Shown piece by piece: positions 49,014 to 59,096 of a DNA stretch of 61,126 bases. The position numbers were made by a program, and so were the translations under genes. The DNA is from an uncultured Clostridia bacterium (GTDB lineage Bacteria; Bacillota; Clostridia; Christensenellales; Borkfalkiaceae), in the NCBI GenBank assembly GCA_947570625.1, contig CANOUP010000010.1, forward strand, positions 1 through 61,126, read 5' to 3'. Every line of letters begins with the position of its first letter. Position 1 is the stretch's first letter. The notes under the pieces were generated by a model. It did no database searches and was not told where the DNA came from. It worked only from the letters and a program-made list of their open reading frames with translations.

Positions 49014-49042
49014 AAATCGCGTTTGTAAGCCAAACGCGATTT
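49014..49042 (-). terminator. Terminator of the seven-gene island
   Basis: AAATCGCGTTTG and CAAACGCGATTT form a 12-bp stem with a 5-nt loop. On the minus strand a GTTATTCTT tail follows. It lies 12 nt past the last stop codon of the island. Confidence 0.8.
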
Positions 49043-49054
49043 TTCACAGGAATA

Positions 49055-50773
49055 TCAGAAAAAGTTGTCTTTTAATGCCTTGCCGTCAAACTGCGCGTAC
49101 ATTTCGCGGTACGACTGCATTTCGTTAAAGACATACCGCATCTTTTCGGTATAGCTTACTATGTCCTTTTCGTACTTCTCGTCGGAAGCAATGCGCGCTT
49201 TGAAGTTATTATACTTTACTCCTACGCCCAAAACAAACAGCACTACGCCCGCAAGTTCGCACCCGATAAGCCCGGCATATGCGCCCGCATTGCCTATGAC
49301 ACCGCTAAGGCAGAAAAGCACTATGCCCGCAACGGCAAGTATTCCGCCGAATACCATGCAGAGAATAAACTTCAAATCGCTTAGCTTAGCTTTCTCGCCG
49401 TCGCGGCGTTTGGCGCAGAAGGTTTTTATGTCCTCTTCTTCCTTGGAAATATCGTTTAAAAGCGTGCGCGTGCGGTACTCGCCGAGATTGAGCGTAACGC
49501 TTTCGGTGTACTTGGAGCGGTATTCGGAAACGTACTTTTTGTACGCGCGTTTATACGCGCGCCTGCACTTTGAATAGGAATACTCTTTAAGTTTTTCCTT
49601 GCCCGCGTAATTTTCGTTTTCACCCAGCCATTCGAAAAGACAGTCTTCGAGGTCTACGTCCGAAACGCTTTCGGCTTTCTGCCTGACTTTTAGCTCCATC
49701 GCGCCTTCTACGTCGCCCTTTCTCTCTATTATGCGCTCGTGGTCGGCTATCTTGTCGTAAATTTCCTGCGACCTGGGCGAATTGCAATCGTCGACGGTTA
49801 TATCGAAAAGCTTTATTATTACTTCCTTTTTATAATCGCTTTGCGCCTTTTTATTGAACTTCTGTAAATACCCCGCGATTTCCTCGTTATTCATCGCGCC
49901 GTAAAGCGCCTGCGACAGATTGCCCGCTTCCTCTATGCACTCGTTCATATACCTGAACTCGGGCGGTTTTACCGTCATAAGACTGCGGTAGGTATCGAGA
50001 AGTTTGCCCGTTCTGTTTTCCCCCTCGATTTCGCCGACGGAGTTCAAACCTATATATTTTTTAAGCTGTTCGCCGAACTTACCGATATCCGTCAGGGCAA
50101 GAAGGGTAAGCATTTTAAACTGTTCCTTCTCCCCTCCGCTTATCGGGCGGACGGTAAGTTTTTCGAACCAGTGACGCATACTCTCTTCGTCGTTGCGCCT
50201 TAACGCGACGGCGAAGTACACCCAGGCGCTTTTGCGCGGATTGAGGTCGAGCGCCGCTTTTCGCGCGCGTTCGGCCGCCTCGGCTTCACCGCGCTTCGTA
50301 AGCTGTAAATCCATCATTATATAGCTTAAAAAGAAGTCCTTGGTCATTATGTGCAGCTTTTCGGACTGGACGTCAATCACCTCTTCGCTTGCAAGCTTGT
50401 TTTCCTCGTTTTCGATGATTGCGGTTACCATTCTCTTAACCGTCTTTTCGTTGCCCTGCTGGTTTCTGAGGTCGTTTTTAAGCTTTCTTATCTCTTTGTA
50501 GGAATTTTCTATTATCTTGAACCGCGCCGTTATCGCGCCGATGTCGTCGGCAACGGCGGAAACGTTTTTAAGCGTGCCGTCGCCCGAGTTGAGCGTGGAA
50601 TGCCCCGTATCCAGCGCATGCACGGCGTTAGACTGCGCGGTGCGCACGCCGTTGAGAGCGCTGTTAAGCGTGCTCGTCATCTGGTTTATTTCGCCGCGCA
50701 TCTGCGAGTTTTCGTTTTCAATGCTTCTAAGCTCGCTTTCAAGACGGCTTATATCGCTCTGTGTTACTGCCAT
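49055..50773 (-). CDS. Island gene 7: coiled-coil/helical protein with C-terminal membrane hairpin
   Basis: The protein has 572 residues. Residues 5-110 are heptad-rich (SRLESELRSIENENSQMRGE), then 146-206 hold the core shared by three island proteins (DFFLSYIMMDL...PRKSAWVYFAVALRRND...HWFEKL). A long helical region with a GDVEGAMELKVRQKAE segment follows. Two membrane helices lie at about 468-521 and a helical tail of about 50 residues ends the protein. It is the most diverged of the three paralogues. A strong GGAGG lies before ATG 50773, only 2 nt from the AAA+ gene. No enzymatic motif is visible and function is unknown. Confidence 0.85.
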   Translation of the reverse strand: MAVTQSDISRLESELRSIENENSQMRGEINQMTSTLNSALNGVRTAQSNAVHALDTGHSTLNSGDGTLKNVSAVADDIGAITARFKIIENSYKEIRKLKNDLRNQQGNEKTVKRMVTAIIENEENKLASEEVIDVQSEKLHIMTKDFFLSYIMMDLQLTKRGEAEAAERARKAALDLNPRKSAWVYFAVALRRNDEESMRHWFEKLTVRPISGGEKEQFKMLTLLALTDIGKFGEQLKKYIGLNSVGEIEGENRTGKLLDTYRSLMTVKPPEFRYMNECIEEAGNLSQALYGAMNNEEIAGYLQKFNKKAQSDYKKEVIIKLFDITVDDCNSPRSQEIYDKIADHERIIERKGDVEGAMELKVRQKAESVSDVDLEDCLFEWLGENENYAGKEKLKEYSYSKCRRAYKRAYKKYVSEYRSKYTESVTLNLGEYRTRTLLNDISKEEEDIKTFCAKRRDGEKAKLSDLKFILCMVFGGILAVAGIVLFCLSGVIGNAGAYAGLIGCELAGVVLFVLGVGVKYNNFKARIASDEKYEKDIVSYTEKMRYVFNEMQSYREMYAQFDGKALKDNFF

Positions 50774-50775
50774 AT

Positions 50776-52257
50776 TCAGCTCCTTCCCCCCGAAGCGGGA
50801 ACCGCGCGTTCGCTTCCCCACCGCCTAGAACGCTCAATCTGTTCGGGCTGGGAAAAGGCTATGCCCACGGTCGCTTCAAAAGATTTTTTAAGAGAGGAAT
50901 AACTTTCGGTAATGCCGTCGGTGTATTCCCTTTCGGCGGAAGTTTTTACCGCCGACTCTATATCGGCGTAGGAAAAACCATCCGATATTCGTGCAAGTTC
51001 GTTAAACTGTTTTTCGTCGGGCGCGAAGGACAGGCACATTCCGCAATAAAGCTTTATCGCGCTGAGCCTTTCCTCTTCCGACGGCAGGTCGACGTAAAAT
51101 ATTTCGCTAAGCCTGCCCTTTCTGAAAAGTTCGGGAGGCATTAATGAAACGTCGTTCGCCGTAGCGACGAGGAACACCCGCCCCGAATACTCTTGAAGCC
51201 AGTAGAGGAAGCTTCCCAAAAGGCGTTTGGCGGTGTCGTTATCTCCCCCGCTGTACAGCTCTTTTTCTATTTCGTCTATCCACAGCACGCAGGGACTTAC
51301 GCTTTCCGCGTATTCGAGCGCGATGCGCATATTCTTTTCGCTTTCGCCTACGTATTTGTCGAACAGCGCGCCTATGTCGAACCTGTAAAGCGGCAACTGC
51401 CATTTGTCGGCTATAAGCTTTGCCGAAAGTGACTTTCCGCACCCCGGCACGCCGGCAAGCAGTATGCCCTTAGGCGGGGACAGACGCTTTTTTTCAAGCT
51501 CTTCGCGAGGGGCGAAAAATATCTTTTTCTTCCTGTCCAGCCACTCCTTCAAACCTTCCAGCCCCGCGGAACGCACGTTGCCCGTTTCAGTGCGGGTAAT
51601 GGAAACGACCTTGCCGAAAAGTCTGTCCTTGCGCATTGCTATGTAATTCAGGTTGGCGAACGTAAGCCCGCCTTCCAGACAGGAAGCATACCTTAAAATG
51701 GTATTCAGCTGTAAAGCCGTATAGCCCGAAAGCACCGTCGACGCAAGCGGTATGTCCGCTTCGAAATTCTTTATCCTGTTTTTACGGACAAATTCTTTTA
51801 TTATGTTTTCGCGCTCCGGCTGCGAAGGCAGGTCGAGTTTGAGATACATTCCCAGCCTGCCGAGGCTTTGCCATACCGCCTCGTGCGTGACCGCGATTAC
51901 CGTGCTCTTTCTCTCGGAAGCCAGCCGTACGATATTTTTAAGCTTGCGCGAAAACGAAGTGTCCGCGTCGAGGTATCTCACGTCGCCGAGCGCGAATACG
52001 GAACCCGTCTTTTTTTTGAGCACTTCCTCGATATACCCGAGCGGTTCCCCGCCCGCGTCCGCGGTACGCTCCCCGCGCCTCAGCTCGGTAAACTGGTCGC
52101 ATTCGGTATAAAAATCTATTTCTGTATTGAGTGCGCGCGCAACTTCGCAAAGCGCCGTCTGCGCCCTGTCCCTCTCCTCGGTGTCGAGAATTACGAGGGG
52201 AGTGCGCGAAGCGACGCACGCGGTCAGCTCGCGTATTATTTCGCCGTATGCGCTCAT
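50776..52257 (-). CDS. Island gene 6: Ycf46-like AAA+ ATPase
   Basis: The 493-residue protein has an N-terminal degenerate ATPase-like domain (1-240; ASRTPLVILDTEERDRAQ is the typical Ycf46 opening). A classical AAA domain follows: Walker A GVPGCGKS (269-276), Walker B CVLWIDEIEK (323-332), sensor 1 VATANDVS (364-371) and the arginine-finger region ELFRKGRLSE. AAA proteins of this form remodel protein complexes. Ycf46 is known from cyanobacteria and plastids without a settled role. Its ATG overlaps the preceding TGA (ATGA), and the next gene starts 2 nt after its stop. It is the only clear energy-using component of the island. Confidence 0.9.
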   Translation of the reverse strand: MSAYGEIIRELTACVASRTPLVILDTEERDRAQTALCEVARALNTEIDFYTECDQFTELRRGERTADAGGEPLGYIEEVLKKKTGSVFALGDVRYLDADTSFSRKLKNIVRLASERKSTVIAVTHEAVWQSLGRLGMYLKLDLPSQPERENIIKEFVRKNRIKNFEADIPLASTVLSGYTALQLNTILRYASCLEGGLTFANLNYIAMRKDRLFGKVVSITRTETGNVRSAGLEGLKEWLDRKKKIFFAPREELEKKRLSPPKGILLAGVPGCGKSLSAKLIADKWQLPLYRFDIGALFDKYVGESEKNMRIALEYAESVSPCVLWIDEIEKELYSGGDNDTAKRLLGSFLYWLQEYSGRVFLVATANDVSLMPPELFRKGRLSEIFYVDLPSEEERLSAIKLYCGMCLSFAPDEKQFNELARISDGFSYADIESAVKTSAEREYTDGITESYSSLKKSFEATVGIAFSQPEQIERSRRWGSERAVPASGGRS

Positions 52258-52682
52258 ATGTTCTCCTTGACAAGCACGCGTTCGAGCATGCTAAGTTCGA
52301 ATTGTACGTCGGCGCTGTCGGGATAAACCGCACCGACGTTGGTTATGACGCTTCTTGCGACCCTTACTATTTCTCCCGTAAGATTGTCGCTGTCGCACTT
52401 TTTTATAAAGCTGAGCTTTTTGTAAAAGAAAAGCCTTTTGATATATGCCGAGTAGCGTCTTAAACAGTATACCGCCGTTATCTGCCCGCCGTTTACATCT
52501 ATCTGTCCGCCCGCCGTATCCAGCCCGCGCGTGACCGCGTCGGATATGCGGTTAAACAGCGCGGAATACGACTGCTTTTTTTCAAGCTTTCCGCGCGACA
52601 GAAAGGCGCAAGATTCTACGGTAAGAGGGTTTTTAAGCGCCGAGTCCCATTCGGCGTAGCCCGACGGTCCCTTTAACCTCAT
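52254..52682 (-). CDS. Island gene 5: small basic protein, 142 aa, unknown
   Basis: The protein begins MRLKGPSGYAEWDSALKNPL. It has a helical, Lys/Arg-rich middle (KLEKKQSYSALFNRISDAV, YCLRRYSAYIKRLFFYKKL) and a C-terminal helix with DSADVQFELSMLERVLVKE. It has no membrane segment and no known motif. The start at 52682 overlaps the stop of the 59-residue gene (ATGA), and its own stop overlaps the AAA+ start in the same way. Three consecutive products are therefore translationally coupled and probably needed in similar amounts. It is a candidate adaptor between the small protein and the ATPase (inference). Confidence 0.8.
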   Translation of the reverse strand: MRLKGPSGYAEWDSALKNPLTVESCAFLSRGKLEKKQSYSALFNRISDAVTRGLDTAGGQIDVNGGQITAVYCLRRYSAYIKRLFFYKKLSFIKKCDSDNLTGEIVRVARSVITNVGAVYPDSADVQFELSMLERVLVKENI

Positions 52683-52858
52683 TGTTTTTTGTATTTCGAA
52701 GGGGGCTCTATACTCCACTTCGGAAGCTTTTTATTTATTTCTTTAAGCTGCTCCGTAGAAAGCACGTTCGCGCCCTCGTCGCCGAACAGCGACAAATCCA
52801 GCCCGAAGCTGTCAGCCTCGTCCGCCTTGTTTTCTGTCTTGATGTTTTTTTCGTCCAT
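52679..52858 (-). CDS. Island gene 4: 59-residue acidic protein
   Basis: A short frame begins MDEKNIKTENKADEADSFGL, has SLFGDEGANVLSTEQLKEIN and ends KLPKWSIEPPSKYKKQ. The acidic, disordered N-terminus and basic, Pro/Trp-containing C-terminus suggest a linear-motif adaptor or tail. Support for translation is strong: AAGGAG at 7 nt, 12 nt after the preceding gene and a 4-nt ATGA overlap with the next. No family is recognised. The coupling suggests it works with the 142-residue protein and the AAA+ ATPase. Confidence 0.82.
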   Translation of the reverse strand: MDEKNIKTENKADEADSFGLDLSLFGDEGANVLSTEQLKEINKKLPKWSIEPPSKYKKQ

Positions 52859-52870
52859 ACGTCTTTCTCC

Positions 52871-54496
52871 TTACATTCTCACAAGTTTTTGCACGACTTC
52901 TTCTTTGACCGCCGTCATCTTTTCGAACGCTTCGCGGTAACCTTCAAGTTCGTCCAGACAGGCGTACAGCGTATCGACTGCCCGCTGTATGCGCTTGGGG
53001 AAACCTTTGAATTTTGCGACTGTCGTCAAAACGACTATGAGTGCGAGAACAACGAACAGCCCCGCGCCCGCTATGTAGCCGTAGAACGTAGCCGTCATAC
53101 CTATAACACAGCCGAGTATTAGCGCAACGACGGCGATAACCGTTGAAACAATGTTGAATTTGGTAAACACGAGAAGCTTTGACCGCTCTGCGTTAAACTT
53201 GTCGCGCAGACCTTTTTCGACGGCTTCCCTGTCCTTGCCGTCCGTGGTGTCCTCCCACAAATCGATTTTGAGCTTGAACGTACCGGGCGCGGAGCTCTTT
53301 ACGTCGTGGTCGTAGGCGTTGAGCGCGGAAACGAACCAGTCCTTTGTTTTCTGGACGGCGAATTTCTGCACGCTCTTGTCGACGCCCTTGGGATAGACCG
53401 CCCAGCGGAACATCTGCTCGCCTATGTTGGGCGCGTCCTTTACGCCCTCCATATATACTGCGTACTGTTTTTTCGCCGATTCCACGTCGCCCTTGTGCTC
53501 CATTACGAGCTCGTAGAACTTTTTCTCTTTTTCAAGCCTTAACTCTTCCTCGTCGTAGTTGGTGACAAGGTCGTCGAGAAGCTTGTCAATGCTCTTTACA
53601 AAGTCGTCGCCGCAGTTGAATTCCGCGATTTCGTCCAGCTCGTCTACCCTTTTGAGCACCGCCTTGTACCTGCTTGCGTTGACGAGCGAAGAGTTGATTT
53701 CGGCAAGGTTTGAACAGTGCTCGTCCAAAACGTTGGTCGTATAGCTCCACTTGTCGGAAGGCAGGCTGTTTACGTATTTTGAATAATCCCCGACGAGCCC
53801 CGCGGAAATTTCCGCGTCCGAACCGAGTTCGGTTATCCAGCTTTCGACCATATTCTGCACGTAATCGTCAAGCTGCGAATCCCTGCCGAAAACGCCGAAA
53901 AGATAAGCTTGCAGCAAAAGCGCGGTTTCGCGCGGGGGATGAACGGCTTCGACCGAGCCGAAATATTCGTACAGCCACGAGCGCGCTTCAAGATGACGGC
54001 CGAAACGCAGGTTGAGAAGGCAGAAAAACAGCGAAGTCTTGTTTGCGTCCCTTCTCACCGCTTCGGCGACAGCGTTGGAACACAGTTCCCTGTCGTCCTG
54101 TATCCACGCGCATATGCCGATGAAAGCATACGAAAGCCAGTAACGCGACGTGGACATCCACAGCTCCTGACTGAGTTTTGCGATTGTAGAGTTGCGCGCA
54201 AGGTTTATGTCGAAATCCTTTATTACGCCTATTACCGAACGGCGCACCGTCTGGTAGGGCGCAAGCTGGGAATTGATTTCCTGATTGATTTTTAAAATGT
54301 TTTCGTGCGCAATCTGTTCCTGTTCGCCCTCGATAATCTTAGTGCGCAAATCGACGATTTTTTTGTTTACGCCGTTGACTGTCTTGTCGATTTTGTCCAG
54401 CGCGGTATGCACTTTTTGCGACTGGTTGGAAACTTCCTGTACGAACCCCGAAGCCGTACTTTGAAGTTCGGATACAAGCTGTGCGGTATTAGCCAT
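52871..54496 (-). CDS. Island gene 3: coiled-coil/helical protein with C-terminal membrane hairpin
   Basis: The protein has 541 residues. The N-terminal coiled coil (about 1-75; LVSELQSTASGFVQEVSNQS) precedes the core shared with island genes 2 and 7, at 117-182 (SRYWLSYAFIG...CSNAVAEAVRRD...SLFFCLLNLRFGRHLEA). A TPR-like helical region contains ELVMEHKGDVESAKKQY and FKLKIDLWEDTTDG. Two membrane helices lie at about 448-494 and a 47-residue helical tail faces the cytoplasm. There is no signal peptide, so most of the protein is cytoplasmic. GGAGG lies before the ATG, which is inside the 3' end of gene 2. Confidence 0.86.
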   Translation of the reverse strand: MANTAQLVSELQSTASGFVQEVSNQSQKVHTALDKIDKTVNGVNKKIVDLRTKIIEGEQEQIAHENILKINQEINSQLAPYQTVRRSVIGVIKDFDINLARNSTIAKLSQELWMSTSRYWLSYAFIGICAWIQDDRELCSNAVAEAVRRDANKTSLFFCLLNLRFGRHLEARSWLYEYFGSVEAVHPPRETALLLQAYLFGVFGRDSQLDDYVQNMVESWITELGSDAEISAGLVGDYSKYVNSLPSDKWSYTTNVLDEHCSNLAEINSSLVNASRYKAVLKRVDELDEIAEFNCGDDFVKSIDKLLDDLVTNYDEEELRLEKEKKFYELVMEHKGDVESAKKQYAVYMEGVKDAPNIGEQMFRWAVYPKGVDKSVQKFAVQKTKDWFVSALNAYDHDVKSSAPGTFKLKIDLWEDTTDGKDREAVEKGLRDKFNAERSKLLVFTKFNIVSTVIAVVALILGCVIGMTATFYGYIAGAGLFVVLALIVVLTTVAKFKGFPKRIQRAVDTLYACLDELEGYREAFEKMTAVKEEVVQKLVRM

Positions 54497-56270
54497 TTTT
54501 TGCCTCCTTCAAAACGTTTATAAGTTCCGCGTGAACGCTGTCAGCGGTGTGATAGTCCGAACGCCACGACGCCAAACCGGCAAGCCCGTCTTCGAGCATT
54601 TTAAGACCGTTGTTAATCCTGTACTCGAAGCTTTTGCGTATTTTCGCCTTTTCCGCCTGCATAAAGTAGATGCACATTGCGAACGCGCCTGCGGAGAGGA
54701 CGGCGAGCGCAATGAACGTTACGCAGGGTCCCGTCCCCCACGAGCCGATAAACCCGAGAACGGTTAAAACGGTAAACAGCGCAAACGCGCCGAAACCGCC
54801 CGCAATAAAAGCTTTAAGCGATTTCACCGCTTTGTCGGCTTTTATGCTGTTTTTTACCAGTCCGTCGTAATATTTCAAAAGCACGGGTTTGTTGGTTTCG
54901 AAACTGTTTTCGTCCCCGCGCATTTTACAGTCCTCTATTTGGAAATCGTATTCCTTTTTTTCCTTTTTGCGGTAAGAAGAAAAACGCTCGGCGCCCTGTA
55001 TGCAGTCGCTCCTTACAAAGTCGAAGGCGAATTTTTTTACCCTCGGGTCGGCTTTGGACTTTACGTCGAGCACCGCGTTGAGCATAATCAGCGTCATATT
55101 GCGTGTTCTGTCGCGTTCCATGGCATAGCTTTCGTAAGATTTTTTCGCTTCGGCAATGTTTCCGTTTGCCTTTACGACCATTTCTTCGTAGCGTATCTTA
55201 TCGAGAAGCATTTGCTCGGCGTCGTCGTTGGAAGAAATGAGCGAGTGAAGCGCGTCCTCTATTCTCTCTGCAAGCCTGTCGGAAAGCTCGGTTCCGTCGT
55301 TTATCACCCCGGAAAAATAATCCCTCAGCTTTGCGTTTTTCTCCGCGCAGGACAGCATATCTATCATTTCCGGGTAGTCCGCGCAGATATGTTTAAGCGC
55401 AAGATATTCCTTGTCCGTGACGGACAGGAATGCGTTAAAGTAGTTGTCAACGCTCTCCCTTACGTCCTTGCCCGCCTTGACGTCGTCGCGCGCCTGTTTC
55501 AACAGCTCGCGCATGCGGTTGTAAACGGCTTTGGCAAATTCGGCGTCCGAACCCAGCGCCCCGCACAAAAGCACTTGAAGTATGTAGATGATTTCGTCGC
55601 CTACGCCGTCGGCGTCGACAAGTCCGAAATACACCTCGTACCACTGTTTTGCGCTTTCTATGCGGTTGAAGCGCAGGCTTGCCAGCAGATAGAAAAGCGC
55701 GGACTTGCGTTCGTTAATCTGCATACTCTGCGACACCGCGCGTTCGCACGCTTCTTTCTCGTCCGACACCCACAGCGTAACCGCCATAGCGGCGTACGCC
55801 AGCCAGTAATCTGTGTTTGCGAGATAGGTCTTTTCTACCAGTTCGCGCGGTTCGTCGCTCGTCCACAGGTTCGCGTCGAAGCCTATGATATAGCCCAGCG
55901 CGATACGGCGGAGCGTCTTGTAGAAGCCGTACTTGGTTTCGTACTTTTCCATATCGTCGTAAAGATTTTTGGAAGCCGTACTGCCCGTTTTCAGCATCGA
56001 ATAGCTTTCCGCCAAATCGTCGAGAGTACGCGACACGTTTTCCGCTATAACGCGTTCCTTGTCGGTATTCTGCGCCGTGGAATCGAGAGGCGGAACTACC
56101 GCGCTTTTAAGCTTGCTTATTATGTTAAGCCCGTTATAAACGTCCGTCTGGCATTCCTGAACTTCGTATACAAGGCGGTTGTGCTCTTCCGCGGCGGCGT
56201 TGCGCCTGGCGACAAGACTGTTGTAACGGTTTACAAGCTCGGCTTGGTGTTCCTGTTCGTATTCGGTCAT
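54489..56270 (-). CDS. Island gene 2: coiled-coil/helical protein with C-terminal membrane hairpin
   Basis: The protein has 593 residues. It starts with a coiled coil (about 5-60; YEQEHQAELVNRYNSLVARR) and has the shared core at 153-215 (TDYWLAYAAMAVTLW...CERAVSQSMQ...SALFYLLASLRFNRIESAKQWYE). A middle region with NGNIAEAKKSYESY and VKKFAFDFVRSD aligns with island gene 3. Two membrane helices lie at about 487-536 and the tail ends MLEDGLAGLASWRSDYHTAD. AAGGAGG lies before the ATG, 10 nt after gene 1. Genes 2, 3 and 7 are paralogues, so a hetero-oligomeric membrane assembly is a reasonable inference. Confidence 0.86.
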   Translation of the reverse strand: MTEYEQEHQAELVNRYNSLVARRNAAAEEHNRLVYEVQECQTDVYNGLNIISKLKSAVVPPLDSTAQNTDKERVIAENVSRTLDDLAESYSMLKTGSTASKNLYDDMEKYETKYGFYKTLRRIALGYIIGFDANLWTSDEPRELVEKTYLANTDYWLAYAAMAVTLWVSDEKEACERAVSQSMQINERKSALFYLLASLRFNRIESAKQWYEVYFGLVDADGVGDEIIYILQVLLCGALGSDAEFAKAVYNRMRELLKQARDDVKAGKDVRESVDNYFNAFLSVTDKEYLALKHICADYPEMIDMLSCAEKNAKLRDYFSGVINDGTELSDRLAERIEDALHSLISSNDDAEQMLLDKIRYEEMVVKANGNIAEAKKSYESYAMERDRTRNMTLIMLNAVLDVKSKADPRVKKFAFDFVRSDCIQGAERFSSYRKKEKKEYDFQIEDCKMRGDENSFETNKPVLLKYYDGLVKNSIKADKAVKSLKAFIAGGFGAFALFTVLTVLGFIGSWGTGPCVTFIALAVLSAGAFAMCIYFMQAEKAKIRKSFEYRINNGLKMLEDGLAGLASWRSDYHTADSVHAELINVLKEAKNG

Positions 56271-56280
56271 TATTCCCTCC

Positions 56281-59001
56281 TTATTTTATTGCTTTGGCGA
56301 TTTCGCTCTTAACGTCGCTTGACAGCGCGCACTCGCCCAAATAATCGGCAAACTTTGTTTTCTTGCCGTTGAACAGCATTTTTTCGTCGGCTTTAAGCCC
56401 GCACTTTCTGAGATACGCGACCGCTTCCGAACTTCCGTCGCCTTTGCCCGTCATCGAAAGCAGATAAGCCTGCAACAGGTTGCACTCCACCCCGCCCATC
56501 TTTACTTCCACGCGCTTGGGTTTTGCGACGAAGCGCATAAGGCTAATCAGAAGCGCGTCCTTGACCTTTATGTCCCCCTTAAACTCGCACACGAATCTGA
56601 CGACGCCTTCCTCGGGCATAATTCTTATATATCCCGCTATCAGCGGAAGCACGGTTTCGTATCCTTCAATCAACGCTTCATAGTGCTTGACGAACGTTTC
56701 GCGCGCGCTTCCCGGTTTTTTTTCGAGGTAGTCTTTAAGGCGGTCAACGTACTCTTCGCCGTAAGCGGAAGGCAGGATATTAAGATAAATTTCCAGCGCC
56801 CTGTCGCTTAAACGGTAATCCTTGAAAAATCCGAGAATTTCGCGCTTGTCGTACTCGTTTTCACGGCTCGAAAGATATTTTTCGATTACTTCGTCCGTTT
56901 TCGCGCTCTTGCCCGATTTGGGTGCAAGTATGCGCATAAATTCTTTTTTGAGCGGGTCGTTGCCGAGAAGCAGTCCTTCGTACGCCGAACCGTCTATGAC
57001 GGGCACGTACTCGCTTAACACTTTTACGTTGTCCAGCCTTTCCGCGCCGTTGCTTCTTATAGACTGGATAAGAAGCGTTTCCGCAAGCTTTTTATCCATA
57101 TTGAACGCAAACAGCTCGTTTTTTATGCTGTTAAGATTGCAGTTGTTTATCAGCCTCTGCATATCGTAGGCGCCTATCTTTGTCACGCCCGCGCCGAAAC
57201 GCAGATATTTTAATATTTCTTTGGCTACCGCGGCACCGCCGTTCGAAGCTATCGTTACAAGCTTATCGACCGTCACGCCGTCTACGGGACCCGTGCCGAG
57301 GTTGCTTACCACCGTCTTTGCGCCGTATGCGTCGCCGATATTCGAAAGAGCTCCTCCCAGTCCCAGCGCGTTCAGCCTTAATTTGTTGGCGGTCATTATA
57401 GAAACCACCGCGAGCGCGACGCCCGTGTCCGTACACTCGGACAGATAACCGTTCAGGCTGTCCTCCGATTTTTCGGTACAGTCCGTCTTGTCGGCTATGC
57501 CCATGAGAAGGGTAAGCTTTTGTTCCCCGCGGAAATTCTTTAAAAACGATAATAAAAGCGTGTCGCCGTCAAGGCGGGGAACGGCGCGCATTACCTCGAT
57601 AACGTCGTCGAAGCGGTTGTTGACGAACAACATATTGACGAGCTCGTTTATTATGCGCGTATCGTACAGCTGACCGCAATCTATCAAGTCGAGCACGAAG
57701 CACTGGCGTTTATAGTCCCTTATCGCGCCGAAGCACTTTGCAAGGTACGCCAAAAGCTTTGCGTTGCCTATTTCGGAGTATACGTTTCTTTCGCCCAGCG
57801 TAATCGCGGGACAGTTGCGCTTTATCGATTGTGAAATGTTGCCGACGTTGGCTATGCACTGCTGTCTTTCCGCGGGGGAAGCCTTCGTCATTTTGGCAAG
57901 TTCAAGGCAGAGTTCGGATATAAGTTGAAGTTCGCCGGGGTTATAGCGTTTTTGCATAACGGATATGACGCGCTCGGCTTCGAACGTATTGCCCGCCGTC
58001 ATACACGTAAGCGCCATTACGAAAACTTCGGTCAGGTCCTTGGCTTCGAAGGTAAAACCGCCCGCGTATTTTTGCAGAACCTCGTCCACGTACGCTTTGT
58101 CTATTACGGGCGCGGGCCGGGGCGCGGGCTTATTCTTCTCTTCGCCGTCGGCGAAAGCCAGAGCGGTATTCAGCCAGTTTGCAGAAAGCGAGCTTATGGG
58201 TTCGCGCTTCTGGAAAGCCATTCTGAGAACGGACGGAAACTCGTTTTCGTTGAGTCCGCCGTGCACGACCTGTAATTTTTTACCGCTGAGCGCAAGGAAA
58301 CGGCTCCATACGTTACGGCTCTTTTCAAGGGTGGAAATGCTGTCCGCGACAATGTACATCACGGACGAACTTTCGATGGCGGGATATATGTAAGCTTCCG
58401 CGCTAACGCCCTTAGGCGAAATGCCGTCGGGAGCGAACACCTTGCGCCCCCGCGCTTCGAGCGCGCTTTTGAGCGCGGACGACGCCGAGCGCTCGTTTGC
58501 GCTTTCGCCGCCGTAAACGAAAACCTCGTACGCAGTCTGCGTTTTGCTTATCTCGTAGGTCTGCGAACGTATGCGCTCTATCTCGTTCGCCTTCATGGTA
58601 TACACTTCGCGCTCGCCCGCACCGCACTTTTCGATTACCTTGCGGTAAGCGGTATTGTCGAGGAACGAATGCCTTGACAGCCTGTTCGTCAAAGGACGGG
58701 GACTGCCGTTGCCGTCGGTATATTCGATACCGAACTCGGCAAGCGCCGCGCCCCAATACGCGCGGATTTCGTCGGGGTACGTCTTTGTTATTACCCTGTA
58801 CGTTTCGGCCGCGTCGTCATAACGGCGCAACGCCATATAGTTGCCCGCCTGGCTCAACTGCATAGCAAGCTGTTCGGGAACGGGCTTGCCCTGTTCCTCT
58901 CCCGCTTTATATTTATTTCTGCAACACTTGCACTGTAAAGTATCCGCCGAGATTTGGTTAAGTGTGCCCCCGCAGGATTTACATATAGAAAATTTATTCA
59001 T
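56281..59001 (-). CDS. Island gene 1: zinc-ribbon/TPR/TIR-like protein with long helical C-terminus
   Basis: The protein has 906 residues. A zinc ribbon (C7xxC10...C24xxC27) is followed by a TPR-like segment (50-95; YMALRRYDDAAETYRVITKTYP). Residues 155-265 resemble a TIR domain: AYEVFVYGG...SALKSALEARGRKVFAP...AYIYPAIESSSVMYIVADS...RNVWSRFLAL. From memory of relatives, the motif usually reads KNEWSRF, with Glu the presumed NAD-cleaving residue; here that position is Val231. Residues 310-906 are helical repeats of HEAT/TPR type. It leads the seven-gene operon, with a GGAGC ribosome binding site. A sensor or scaffold without NADase activity is inferred. Confidence 0.85.
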   Translation of the reverse strand: MNKFSICKSCGGTLNQISADTLQCKCCRNKYKAGEEQGKPVPEQLAMQLSQAGNYMALRRYDDAAETYRVITKTYPDEIRAYWGAALAEFGIEYTDGNGSPRPLTNRLSRHSFLDNTAYRKVIEKCGAGEREVYTMKANEIERIRSQTYEISKTQTAYEVFVYGGESANERSASSALKSALEARGRKVFAPDGISPKGVSAEAYIYPAIESSSVMYIVADSISTLEKSRNVWSRFLALSGKKLQVVHGGLNENEFPSVLRMAFQKREPISSLSANWLNTALAFADGEEKNKPAPRPAPVIDKAYVDEVLQKYAGGFTFEAKDLTEVFVMALTCMTAGNTFEAERVISVMQKRYNPGELQLISELCLELAKMTKASPAERQQCIANVGNISQSIKRNCPAITLGERNVYSEIGNAKLLAYLAKCFGAIRDYKRQCFVLDLIDCGQLYDTRIINELVNMLFVNNRFDDVIEVMRAVPRLDGDTLLLSFLKNFRGEQKLTLLMGIADKTDCTEKSEDSLNGYLSECTDTGVALAVVSIMTANKLRLNALGLGGALSNIGDAYGAKTVVSNLGTGPVDGVTVDKLVTIASNGGAAVAKEILKYLRFGAGVTKIGAYDMQRLINNCNLNSIKNELFAFNMDKKLAETLLIQSIRSNGAERLDNVKVLSEYVPVIDGSAYEGLLLGNDPLKKEFMRILAPKSGKSAKTDEVIEKYLSSRENEYDKREILGFFKDYRLSDRALEIYLNILPSAYGEEYVDRLKDYLEKKPGSARETFVKHYEALIEGYETVLPLIAGYIRIMPEEGVVRFVCEFKGDIKVKDALLISLMRFVAKPKRVEVKMGGVECNLLQAYLLSMTGKGDGSSEAVAYLRKCGLKADEKMLFNGKKTKFADYLGECALSSDVKSEIAKAIK

Positions 59002-59057: not shown

Positions 59058-59096
59058 GTGTGAAACAATTTTACCATTTTTTCACACTACTGTCAA
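59058..59096 (-). promoter_or_regulatory. Promoter of the seven-gene island with flanking operator dyad
   Basis: On the minus strand TTGACA (59091-59096), 17 nt and TAAAAT (59068-59073). The inverted repeat GTGTGAAA (59080-59087 as read on minus) and TTTCACAC (59058-59065), with 14 nt between, brackets the -10 box. This geometry suits a dimeric repressor or activator. The leader is about 60 nt. No regulator gene is adjacent. Confidence 0.75.

Follow-up and report, generated by a model that had tools for sequence, protein, structure and literature searches.

A seven-gene island from an uncultured Clostridia bacterium is the long form of a mobile multi-phylum cassette with a putative membrane scaffold and an AAA+ ATPase

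The window (the whole 61,126-nucleotide stretch of DNA that we analysed) contains seven adjacent minus-strand genes, here called A to G. We find that they are the long form of a gene cassette that occurs in several phyla and whose core is C-D-E-F. Dozens of genomes have these genes in the same order, and hence the arrangement in the window is beyond chance. The cassette is real, conserved and, as far as we searched, undescribed; how it works we infer. Our preferred reading, to which we give somewhat less than even weight, is that the cassette is a mobile accessory element that builds an ATP-driven membrane scaffold and is probably defence-like.

Results

The operon in the window

A first-pass annotation, made from the sequence alone, listed seven minus-strand open reading frames separated by 10, -8, 12, -4, -4 and 2 bp. 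All lengths and gaps are exact in the window (Table 1). Two genes have a second possible start. For E, the ATG that overlaps the stop codon of D gives 142 aa and a longer GTG start gives 154 aa. For G, the ATG two bases after the stop codon of F gives 572 aa and a longer GTG start gives 588 aa. Antisense to B, a 457-aa frame is open on the plus strand (54939-56312). Such long shadow ORFs are common in this region and mislead simple gene picking.

The annotation also had the genes run from one promoter to one terminator. A promoter-like site does precede A. The terminator-like hairpin after G is only suggestive, because such sites are not enriched in the region (20 compared to 24.2 expected from shuffles). 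An inverted repeat with eight exact end pairs covers the -10 box (its 15-nt arms are 87% complementary), and a repressor site is a fair guess. Allowing up to three mismatches, the pattern occurs 0.27 times per shuffled window and at least once in 22 of 100 shuffles, which is a weak figure, since the pattern was taken from the site itself. A second exact copy (spacer 10-18) was not found in the window's own 1.72-Mb assembly, which is 92% complete.

Table 1. Genes and putative control signals of the island (positions in the window).
Feature	Position	Strand	Description
Gene A, 906 aa	56281-59001	-	ORF with CxxC zinc-ribbon-like N-terminus, weak TPR, degenerate TIR-like insert, helical C-terminal part
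Gene B, 593 aa	54489-56270	-	Scaffold paralogue, C-terminal hydrophobic hairpin
Gene C, 541 aa	52871-54496	-	Core scaffold paralogue, conserved helical middle, C-terminal hydrophobic hairpin
Gene D, 59 aa	52679-52858	-	Peptide LPKWSIEPP near the C-terminal end
Gene E, 142 aa	52254-52682	-	Family YxxW motif near the N-terminus (window: YAEW)
Gene F, 493 aa	50776-52257	-	AAA+ ATPase; P-loop-less front half, Walker A at residue 269, C-terminal WGSERAVPASG
Gene G, 572 aa	49055-50773	-	Third scaffold paralogue, C-terminal hydrophobic hairpin
Promoter-like site TTGACA-17-TAAAAT, TG before -10 (extended -10)	59068..59096	-	11/12 consensus matches; precedes A
Terminator-like hairpin, 12 pairs	49014..49042	-	3' of G
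Operator-like inverted repeat GTGTGAAA-N14-TTTCACAC over the -10 box	59058..59087	.	Exact match; putative function

Three arrangements of the cassette

When one genome for each of 84,980 species was scanned, 326 stretches proved to be related to C. We annotated the 80 that are most similar to C and added the window, so that all proportions below are those of this sample of 81 loci. The loci were annotated by all-against-all comparison, in which ORF picking may miss small or diverged genes, and the Pfam scan of the locus gene clusters covered cluster representatives. Loci L033, L040 and L072 are taken as the same loci as G091, G269 and G292.

The long form, A-B-C-D-E-F-G, is found at 44 loci including the window, in Clostridia, Bifidobacteriaceae and Eggerthellaceae. 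C is present at all 44 of them, B, D and F at 43 each, G at 39 and A at 37. B stands before C and D after C at 43 of the 44 loci, and G after F at 39. At four of the five loci without G the contig ends within 3 kb of C.

The short form (37 loci) has one C, together with D at 32 loci, F at 35 and a 163-aa protein, k6, at 34. Its hosts are Burkholderiales, Paenibacillus, Streptomyces, Brachyspira, Acidobacteriota-type and clostridial MAGs, and others. k6 precedes C at 24 loci and follows it at 10. Members of k6 (L077 9471-9962 and 33 other short-form loci) are 151-271 aa long and share the motifs RRS, KCYLG, EVHTLD and IEVY; those that were scanned had no Pfam or NCBIfam match.

In a third arrangement (L027-L031), C and D are accompanied by two further genes: an SPFH gene (E 8e-64 or better) and one related to the four-TM cluster (E 3.1e-13 or better). 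An F-like ORF was not found at these five loci or at L089 (10.6-21.4 kb per locus). L089 was counted among the 37 short loci; with an SPFH gene and neither F nor k6, it belongs with the arrangement of C and D only.

The window itself has a C family protein, a small protein directly 3' of C that carries the D peptide, an E with YxxW and an F with a single P-loop after residue 200. Close relatives mostly lack such an island. B is absent from all 36 same-genus and all 24 same-order genomes compared. C matches in 11 of 396 genomes of the order, two of them (G134 and G151) marginally and over short stretches, and only four of the 11, the window's own included, have all three scaffold paralogues. 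In a sample of the phylum, 6 of 398 genomes match at E<=0.001, 2 of them over most of the model. The copy in G091 has a C that is 61-62% identical to that of the window, though G091 belongs to another family of the order. By these comparisons the island appears as a patchy accessory element near home. An isolated oddity of one genome is ruled out by the relatives in the order and by the 326 stretches.

The scaffold paralogues B, C and G

The three coiled-coil proteins had been described as paralogues with a C-terminal membrane hairpin. Both descriptions agree with our results: C matches B at E=1e-29 and G at E=3e-11, and B, C and G of the window each have two hydrophobic segments near the C-terminus, a predicted membrane hairpin. 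Across loci, at least two hydrophobic segments are found in 43 of 43 B proteins, and at least one in 44 of 44 C and 39 of 39 G proteins. The middle of C contains the invariant residues Y119 W120 L121, W131, W174 and W220. We read this part as helical, with coiled-coil character.

In a maximum-likelihood tree of 61 sequences (from 17 of the 44 long and 12 of the 37 short loci), B, C, G and short-form C form one clade each (100/98 or better), and with a midpoint root long-form C is sister to short-form C. The B, C and G clades each extend across Clostridia and Actinomycetota. Recent local duplications are ruled out as the origin of B, C and G, because each is one well-supported clade across phyla.

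As the first-pass annotation had it, most of these proteins belong to no recognisable family: B, C, D, E and G stay below the curated cut-offs of Pfam and NCBIfam. They have weak matches in PADLOC and PHROGs, and no PADLOC model matches C, D or E better than E=0.014. Among solved structures, the C profile matched designed proteins (best 6e-4), bacteriohemerythrins, and viral and adhesin coiled coils, which we read as chance helical matches.

The small proteins D and E

D had been noted as a 59-aa acidic protein. The size is exact, but the conserved peptide at its C-terminal end had been overlooked. A relaxed form of the motif, [L/F]PxW[S/D][L/I]xP, occurs directly after C in 75 of 81 loci (43 of 44 long and 32 of 37 short), 4-13 residues before the end of the protein. 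Across the whole locus set 86 of 9445 ORFs carry it, D included. A wider search adds D in L073 and L106; in four actinobacterial loci (L085, L092, L097 and L107) D was not found by any rule tried. The long-form D cluster ranges from 52 to 87 aa and ends in LPxWSLEPP or a close variant. At the D position, short-form loci have LPxWDLLPxxxFVRR-like ends and clostridial short-form loci have zinc-ribbon-like proteins ending in GLPxWSIEPPxxxVRR.

C and D are the two parts present in all three arrangements. Since D follows C in five loci without an F-like ORF, C is a more economical docking partner for D than F. D would then dock on C.

E proteins have diverged, and the E of the window is 11-30% identical to the others. 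In 36 aligned E proteins the tryptophan of YxxW is invariant and the tyrosine at least 90% conserved. By a motif rule, E lies between D and F in 71 of the 78 loci with F, and E clusters cover 59 of 81 loci. Compared to solved structures, E matched a designed protein (0.0015) and then, more weakly, ribosomal proteins, for example; these too we read as chance helical matches.

The AAA+ ATPase F

The first-pass annotation recognised an AAA+ ATPase in F. This is the sole strong Pfam match among the seven proteins (PF00004, 2e-26). The annotation called it Ycf46-like, a tentative label; Ycf46-like ATPases are presumably similar in size and C-terminal AAA features. The best PHROG is family 8638 (function unknown; 1.4e-78, residues 230-489). 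All 78 F proteins have a single Walker A motif, which lies after residue 200. F was recognised by this motif, so the informative part is the single copy and its position.

The front half of F appears to be an AAA domain without a P-loop. It aligns along its length with an F from a satellite phage (see below; 38% identity overall, 188/494). Of the F proteins, 33 of 35 in the short form and 8 of 43 in the long form have a strict C-terminal WGxERAVPAS-like motif, and some of the others have variants. A single-protein scan for viral relatives of F returned none.

Protein A and its TIR part

A TIR-like fold had been called recognisable in A. This is the case only by way of relatives. The whole A of the window has no TIR match, and its excised part reaches TIR_2 at E=0.17 (12.8 bits, below the Pfam cut-off of 28 bits). 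The same stretch matches relatives in L035 at 1.4e-30 and L034 at 3.8e-28, and TIR_2 is found in the A proteins of L065 (4.9e-14, 53.3 bits) and L035 (8.5e-5). A search with three TIR stretches finds such a part in 5 of 37 A proteins: the window, L033 (a split gene), L034, L035 and L065. The A of the window is about 240 residues longer than the common 664-aa A because of the TPR/TIR-like insert, whose TPR match is sub-threshold. At the presumed catalytic position of TIR domains, four residues past the conserved tryptophan, a glutamate is missing from the aligned A proteins of the window and of the four relatives whose sequences extend that far.

The TIR-like part says little about function, because it is a degenerate insert in a minority of A proteins, and we dropped it as the main clue. 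This bears on one alternative, abortive infection, in which the TIR part of A would be an NADase effector triggered by the membrane complex. The zinc ribbon-TPR-TIR arrangement and the significant TIR_2 matches in L065 and L035 suit such a role. Yet the stretch is rare, the match in the window is poor, a glutamate at the presumed position is absent from the alignment, and none of the 37 short-form loci has a member of the A cluster. We regard abortive infection as very improbable.

In a close relative (L023 6339-9110, identical with L033 5392-8163) two ORFs of 240 and 680 aa take the place of a single gene A, which may reflect an assembly error or decay.

Co-inheritance and mobility

For the long-form proteins A, B, C, F and G, pairwise distances are correlated with r=0.89-0.97, and for each of the ten pairs 0 of 999 permutations were as high. 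These correlations, and the order kept across 44 long-form loci, bear out the earlier view that the genes form one unit. Shared host ancestry also raises distance correlations; the patchiness near home argues that transfer matters. Taken together, the clades of the tree and the correlations indicate that the state with three paralogues is ancient and moves as one set. Unrelated neighbourhoods were not seen for the genes when gene neighbourhoods were compared, and profile and literature comparison showed no match to a characterised complex. Hence the seven-gene island is a real unit, but not a special one: it is the long variant of a widespread cassette.

The short form is carried by mobile elements. 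In the Streptococcus satellite phage Javan368, whose record comes from an S. oralis genome, C-D-E-F-k6 lies at one end and the integrase at the other. The record lists C, E, F and k6 as hypothetical proteins, and D is unannotated. The order k6-C-D-E-F is found on a 26-kb Komagataeibacter plasmid and a 643-kb Comamonas plasmid. An IMG/VR contig carries C-D-E-F-k6, and the gene downstream reads like a serine recombinase. Altogether a short-form C query had a hit in one phage record out of 50,697 and in four plasmid records out of 72,556. Besides the two plasmids above, the plasmid hits are a second Komagataeibacter record and a chromosome-sized Fusobacterium record (2.1 Mb), whose stretch is without annotated features.

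The cargo ends of satellites often carry phage defence. Satellites of S. thermophilus are reported to confer phage resistance (2026; PMC13376191), and the accessible part of that paper has no mention of the C-D-E-F cassette. The first-pass annotation called a defence or envelope-stress role speculation from the TIR fold and the operon style. Circumstantial points for defence are carriage on a satellite phage and plasmids, patchiness, and TIR or HerA companions in some loci. Against it, no enrichment was apparent around the loci scanned, few phage and plasmid records matched, and such elements carry non-defence cargo too. No enzymatic effector is evident in the core C-D-E-F.

We rejected integration at the neighbouring tRNA-Leu, since the operon is, by our reading of the geometry, on the tRNA's 5' side. 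The distribution of the radical-SAM neighbour is patchy too, with matches in 9 of 41 genus genomes at E<=0.001, of which the own genome and 5 others are near full length. In stretches around it from five relatives, the sole other flank gene of the window that is matched is the ABC gene, and weakly (25-29% identity, 3 of 5 stretches); two of the stretches hold tRNA-Leu genes with other anticodons. An empty site did not emerge from the comparison.

Companion genes and flanks

An SPFH-cluster gene is present in at least 28 of the 44 long-form loci, 27 times upstream of C, and a roughly four-TM-cluster gene also in at least 28; contig ends make both counts lower bounds. The SPFH cluster representative matches Band_7_1 (2e-35) and has zinc ribbons. 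The four-TM representative has no Pfam match. Relatives of both genes are absent among the seven genes of the window and at the loci of its three closest relatives, L033-L035 (in L035, within the 2.1 kb upstream of A).

These companions point to an envelope-stress or membrane-repair module like PspA-YdjGHI, in which SPFH/zinc-ribbon and multi-TM proteins would recruit the scaffold to damaged membrane and the AAA+ protein would recycle it, with no link to phages. The third arrangement strengthens the idea. All five of its loci (L027-L031) combine SPFH and four-TM genes without an F-like ORF, and L089 has an SPFH gene and no F. This shifts the balance slightly from a defence-like scaffold to envelope stress. 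In addition, the accessible parts of two papers report that the SPFH protein YdjI is needed for PspA foci (PMC8581546), and that a two-AAA protein with an inactive N-terminal copy occurs beside PspA (PMC11237479). However, none of the seven proteins matches PspA or Snf7, the companions are missing from the window and its closest relatives, and the patchy, mobile distribution is unlike that of a housekeeping module. We consider the envelope-stress module quite possible, though we would not expect it to be right. It and a defence-like function are not mutually exclusive.

A HerA-like ATPase is encoded at L037 4184-6598 and ten other loci. It occurs in eight long-form loci, always between A and B, and in three short-form loci, before C. 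In the long form it is often accompanied by a large protein weakly like C39 peptidases.

The cassette might also be cargo that raises fitness by some route other than defence or stress, such as a scaffold for membrane protein sorting. The short-form flanks are diverse, largely metabolic and transport genes, and some loci have the HerA-like ATPase and the further large protein inserted. Among the best 25 of 119 Pfam families, those with most short-form flank members are transport, metabolic and signalling families. PADLOC on 98 short-form flanking proteins gave strong matches that are scattered, with at most three members per model and without a control set; the scan covered 98 of the 113 short-form flanking proteins collected. 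On the other side, no identified recurring cluster resembles a secretion substrate or a cell-surface gene, a weak point with k8, k15, k23, k27 and k28 outside the count. Fitness cargo of this kind seems unlikely to us.

The window's own genome encodes two SPFH/zinc-ribbon proteins outside the window. At L130 8771-11400, on a different contig from the window (C24), an SPFH/zinc-ribbon gene (Band_7_1, 3e-65) lies beside a gene for a 541-aa zinc-ribbon protein. Contig C8 holds a separate five-gene set on the minus strand (L131 5777-13824). It encodes a 1064-aa TPR-TIR protein (TIR_2 4.5e-9, CxxC pairs at the N-terminus), an SPFH/zinc-ribbon protein, a double AAA protein (CbbX-like, then CDC48-like) and two small proteins of 201 and 187 aa, which we read as coiled coils. 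The sole solved-structure match of the 187-aa protein is CHMP2A, an ESCRT-III protein (E=0.72). In Pfam the small proteins do not match Snf7, and MIT is absent from the best 25 of 53 families for the AAA protein. The set is possibly a bacterial ESCRT-like set. It is followed by a second stretch similar to the A of the window (L131 4852-5754; 24% identity, 6e-16).

Discussion

A model of the cassette

Our model takes what is observed (gene order, homologies, co-inheritance, motifs and mobile-element carriage) and adds putative interactions, a predicted membrane topology, a presumed oligomeric state and a possible protective role. C, here with its paralogues B and G, would oligomerise through its helical N-terminal and middle parts and be anchored in the membrane by the C-terminal hairpin. 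The conserved C-terminal PxW peptide of D would dock on C. E, the YxxW family protein, would bridge D and C to F, and F would use ATP to rearrange or dismantle the scaffold. A may be a cytosolic sensor or platform, with its zinc ribbon, its helical part and, in the subclade of the window, the degenerate TIR insert. Most likely the cassette would protect the cell under certain conditions, with phages or other mobile elements as the most probable threats. The first-pass annotation had suggested a membrane complex driven by the ATPase. Our findings appear compatible with such a complex, and none contradicts it.

A bolder form of the defence-like reading, which we think is on the unlikely side, makes the cassette an undescribed anti-mobile-element system of several phyla. 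Its AAA+ ATPase, with one dead and one live half, would rebuild a membrane-anchored scaffold through a C-terminal PxW docking peptide. In this reading the cassette would follow ESCRT-like logic with parts unrelated to those of ESCRT; the phage satellite and the plasmids have its one-scaffold form, and Clostridia and Bifidobacteriaceae the three-scaffold form.

The D peptide is a simple handle: if our reading is right, a single substitution in it should disrupt the complex. The copies on the satellite phage and the plasmids are compact. If the cassette serves defence, remodelling of a membrane scaffold joins the known strategies. If it serves envelope stress, operons of SPFH and zinc-ribbon proteins become tied to a mobile AAA+ machine.

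Comparison with known systems

As far as we searched, none of the curated libraries Pfam, NCBIfam, PADLOC 2023 and PHROGs describes the gene set. It was not seen in the accessible part of a survey of conflict systems (PMC7159879). Literature on Ycf46, on SPFH/AAA proteins, on phage shock and zinc ribbons, and on ESCRT with MIT or TIR gave no description among the matches listed. Full-text searches with signature peptides found no paper, in a scope outside which most subscription papers and bioRxiv preprints lie.

F belongs to the same broad AAA family as the ATPase of the anti-phage system IetAS (PADLOC IetA, 2e-30). It is not IetA, since it scores 89.5 bits compared to an NCBIfam cut-off of 510, and the neighbours of F in the operon have no protease match that would correspond to the partner IetS.

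The PspA-YdjGHI system of Bacillus subtilis (ydjFGHI) also has an SPFH-domain/zinc-ribbon protein and membrane partners, like those upstream of A in many relatives of the window. According to the accessible part of PMC8581546, YdjI and PspA form foci only if YdjG and YdjH are present, and PspA depends on YdjI. Unlike this system, the cassette has an AAA+ ATPase, the D peptide and the B/C/G scaffold family, and it has no PspA: PspA_IM30 has no match in the seven window proteins at E up to 1, and none of the seven is an SPFH/zinc-ribbon protein. PspA neighbourhoods with SPFH proteins, zinc ribbons and a two-AAA protein are described in the accessible part of PMC11237479. By that description, this ATPase resembles F in its P-loop-less front half and its AAA second half, but F adjoins C, D and E instead of PspA.

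ESCRT-III/Vps4 differs in its parts, as the seven window proteins match neither Snf7 nor MIT at E up to 1. Some archaeal ESCRT loci hold an SPFH protein with a zinc ribbon, according to the accessible part of PMC10936438. The likeness to our cassette lies in the proposed logic only: in both, an AAA+ ATPase would act on a membrane-bound helical polymer through short C-terminal peptides.
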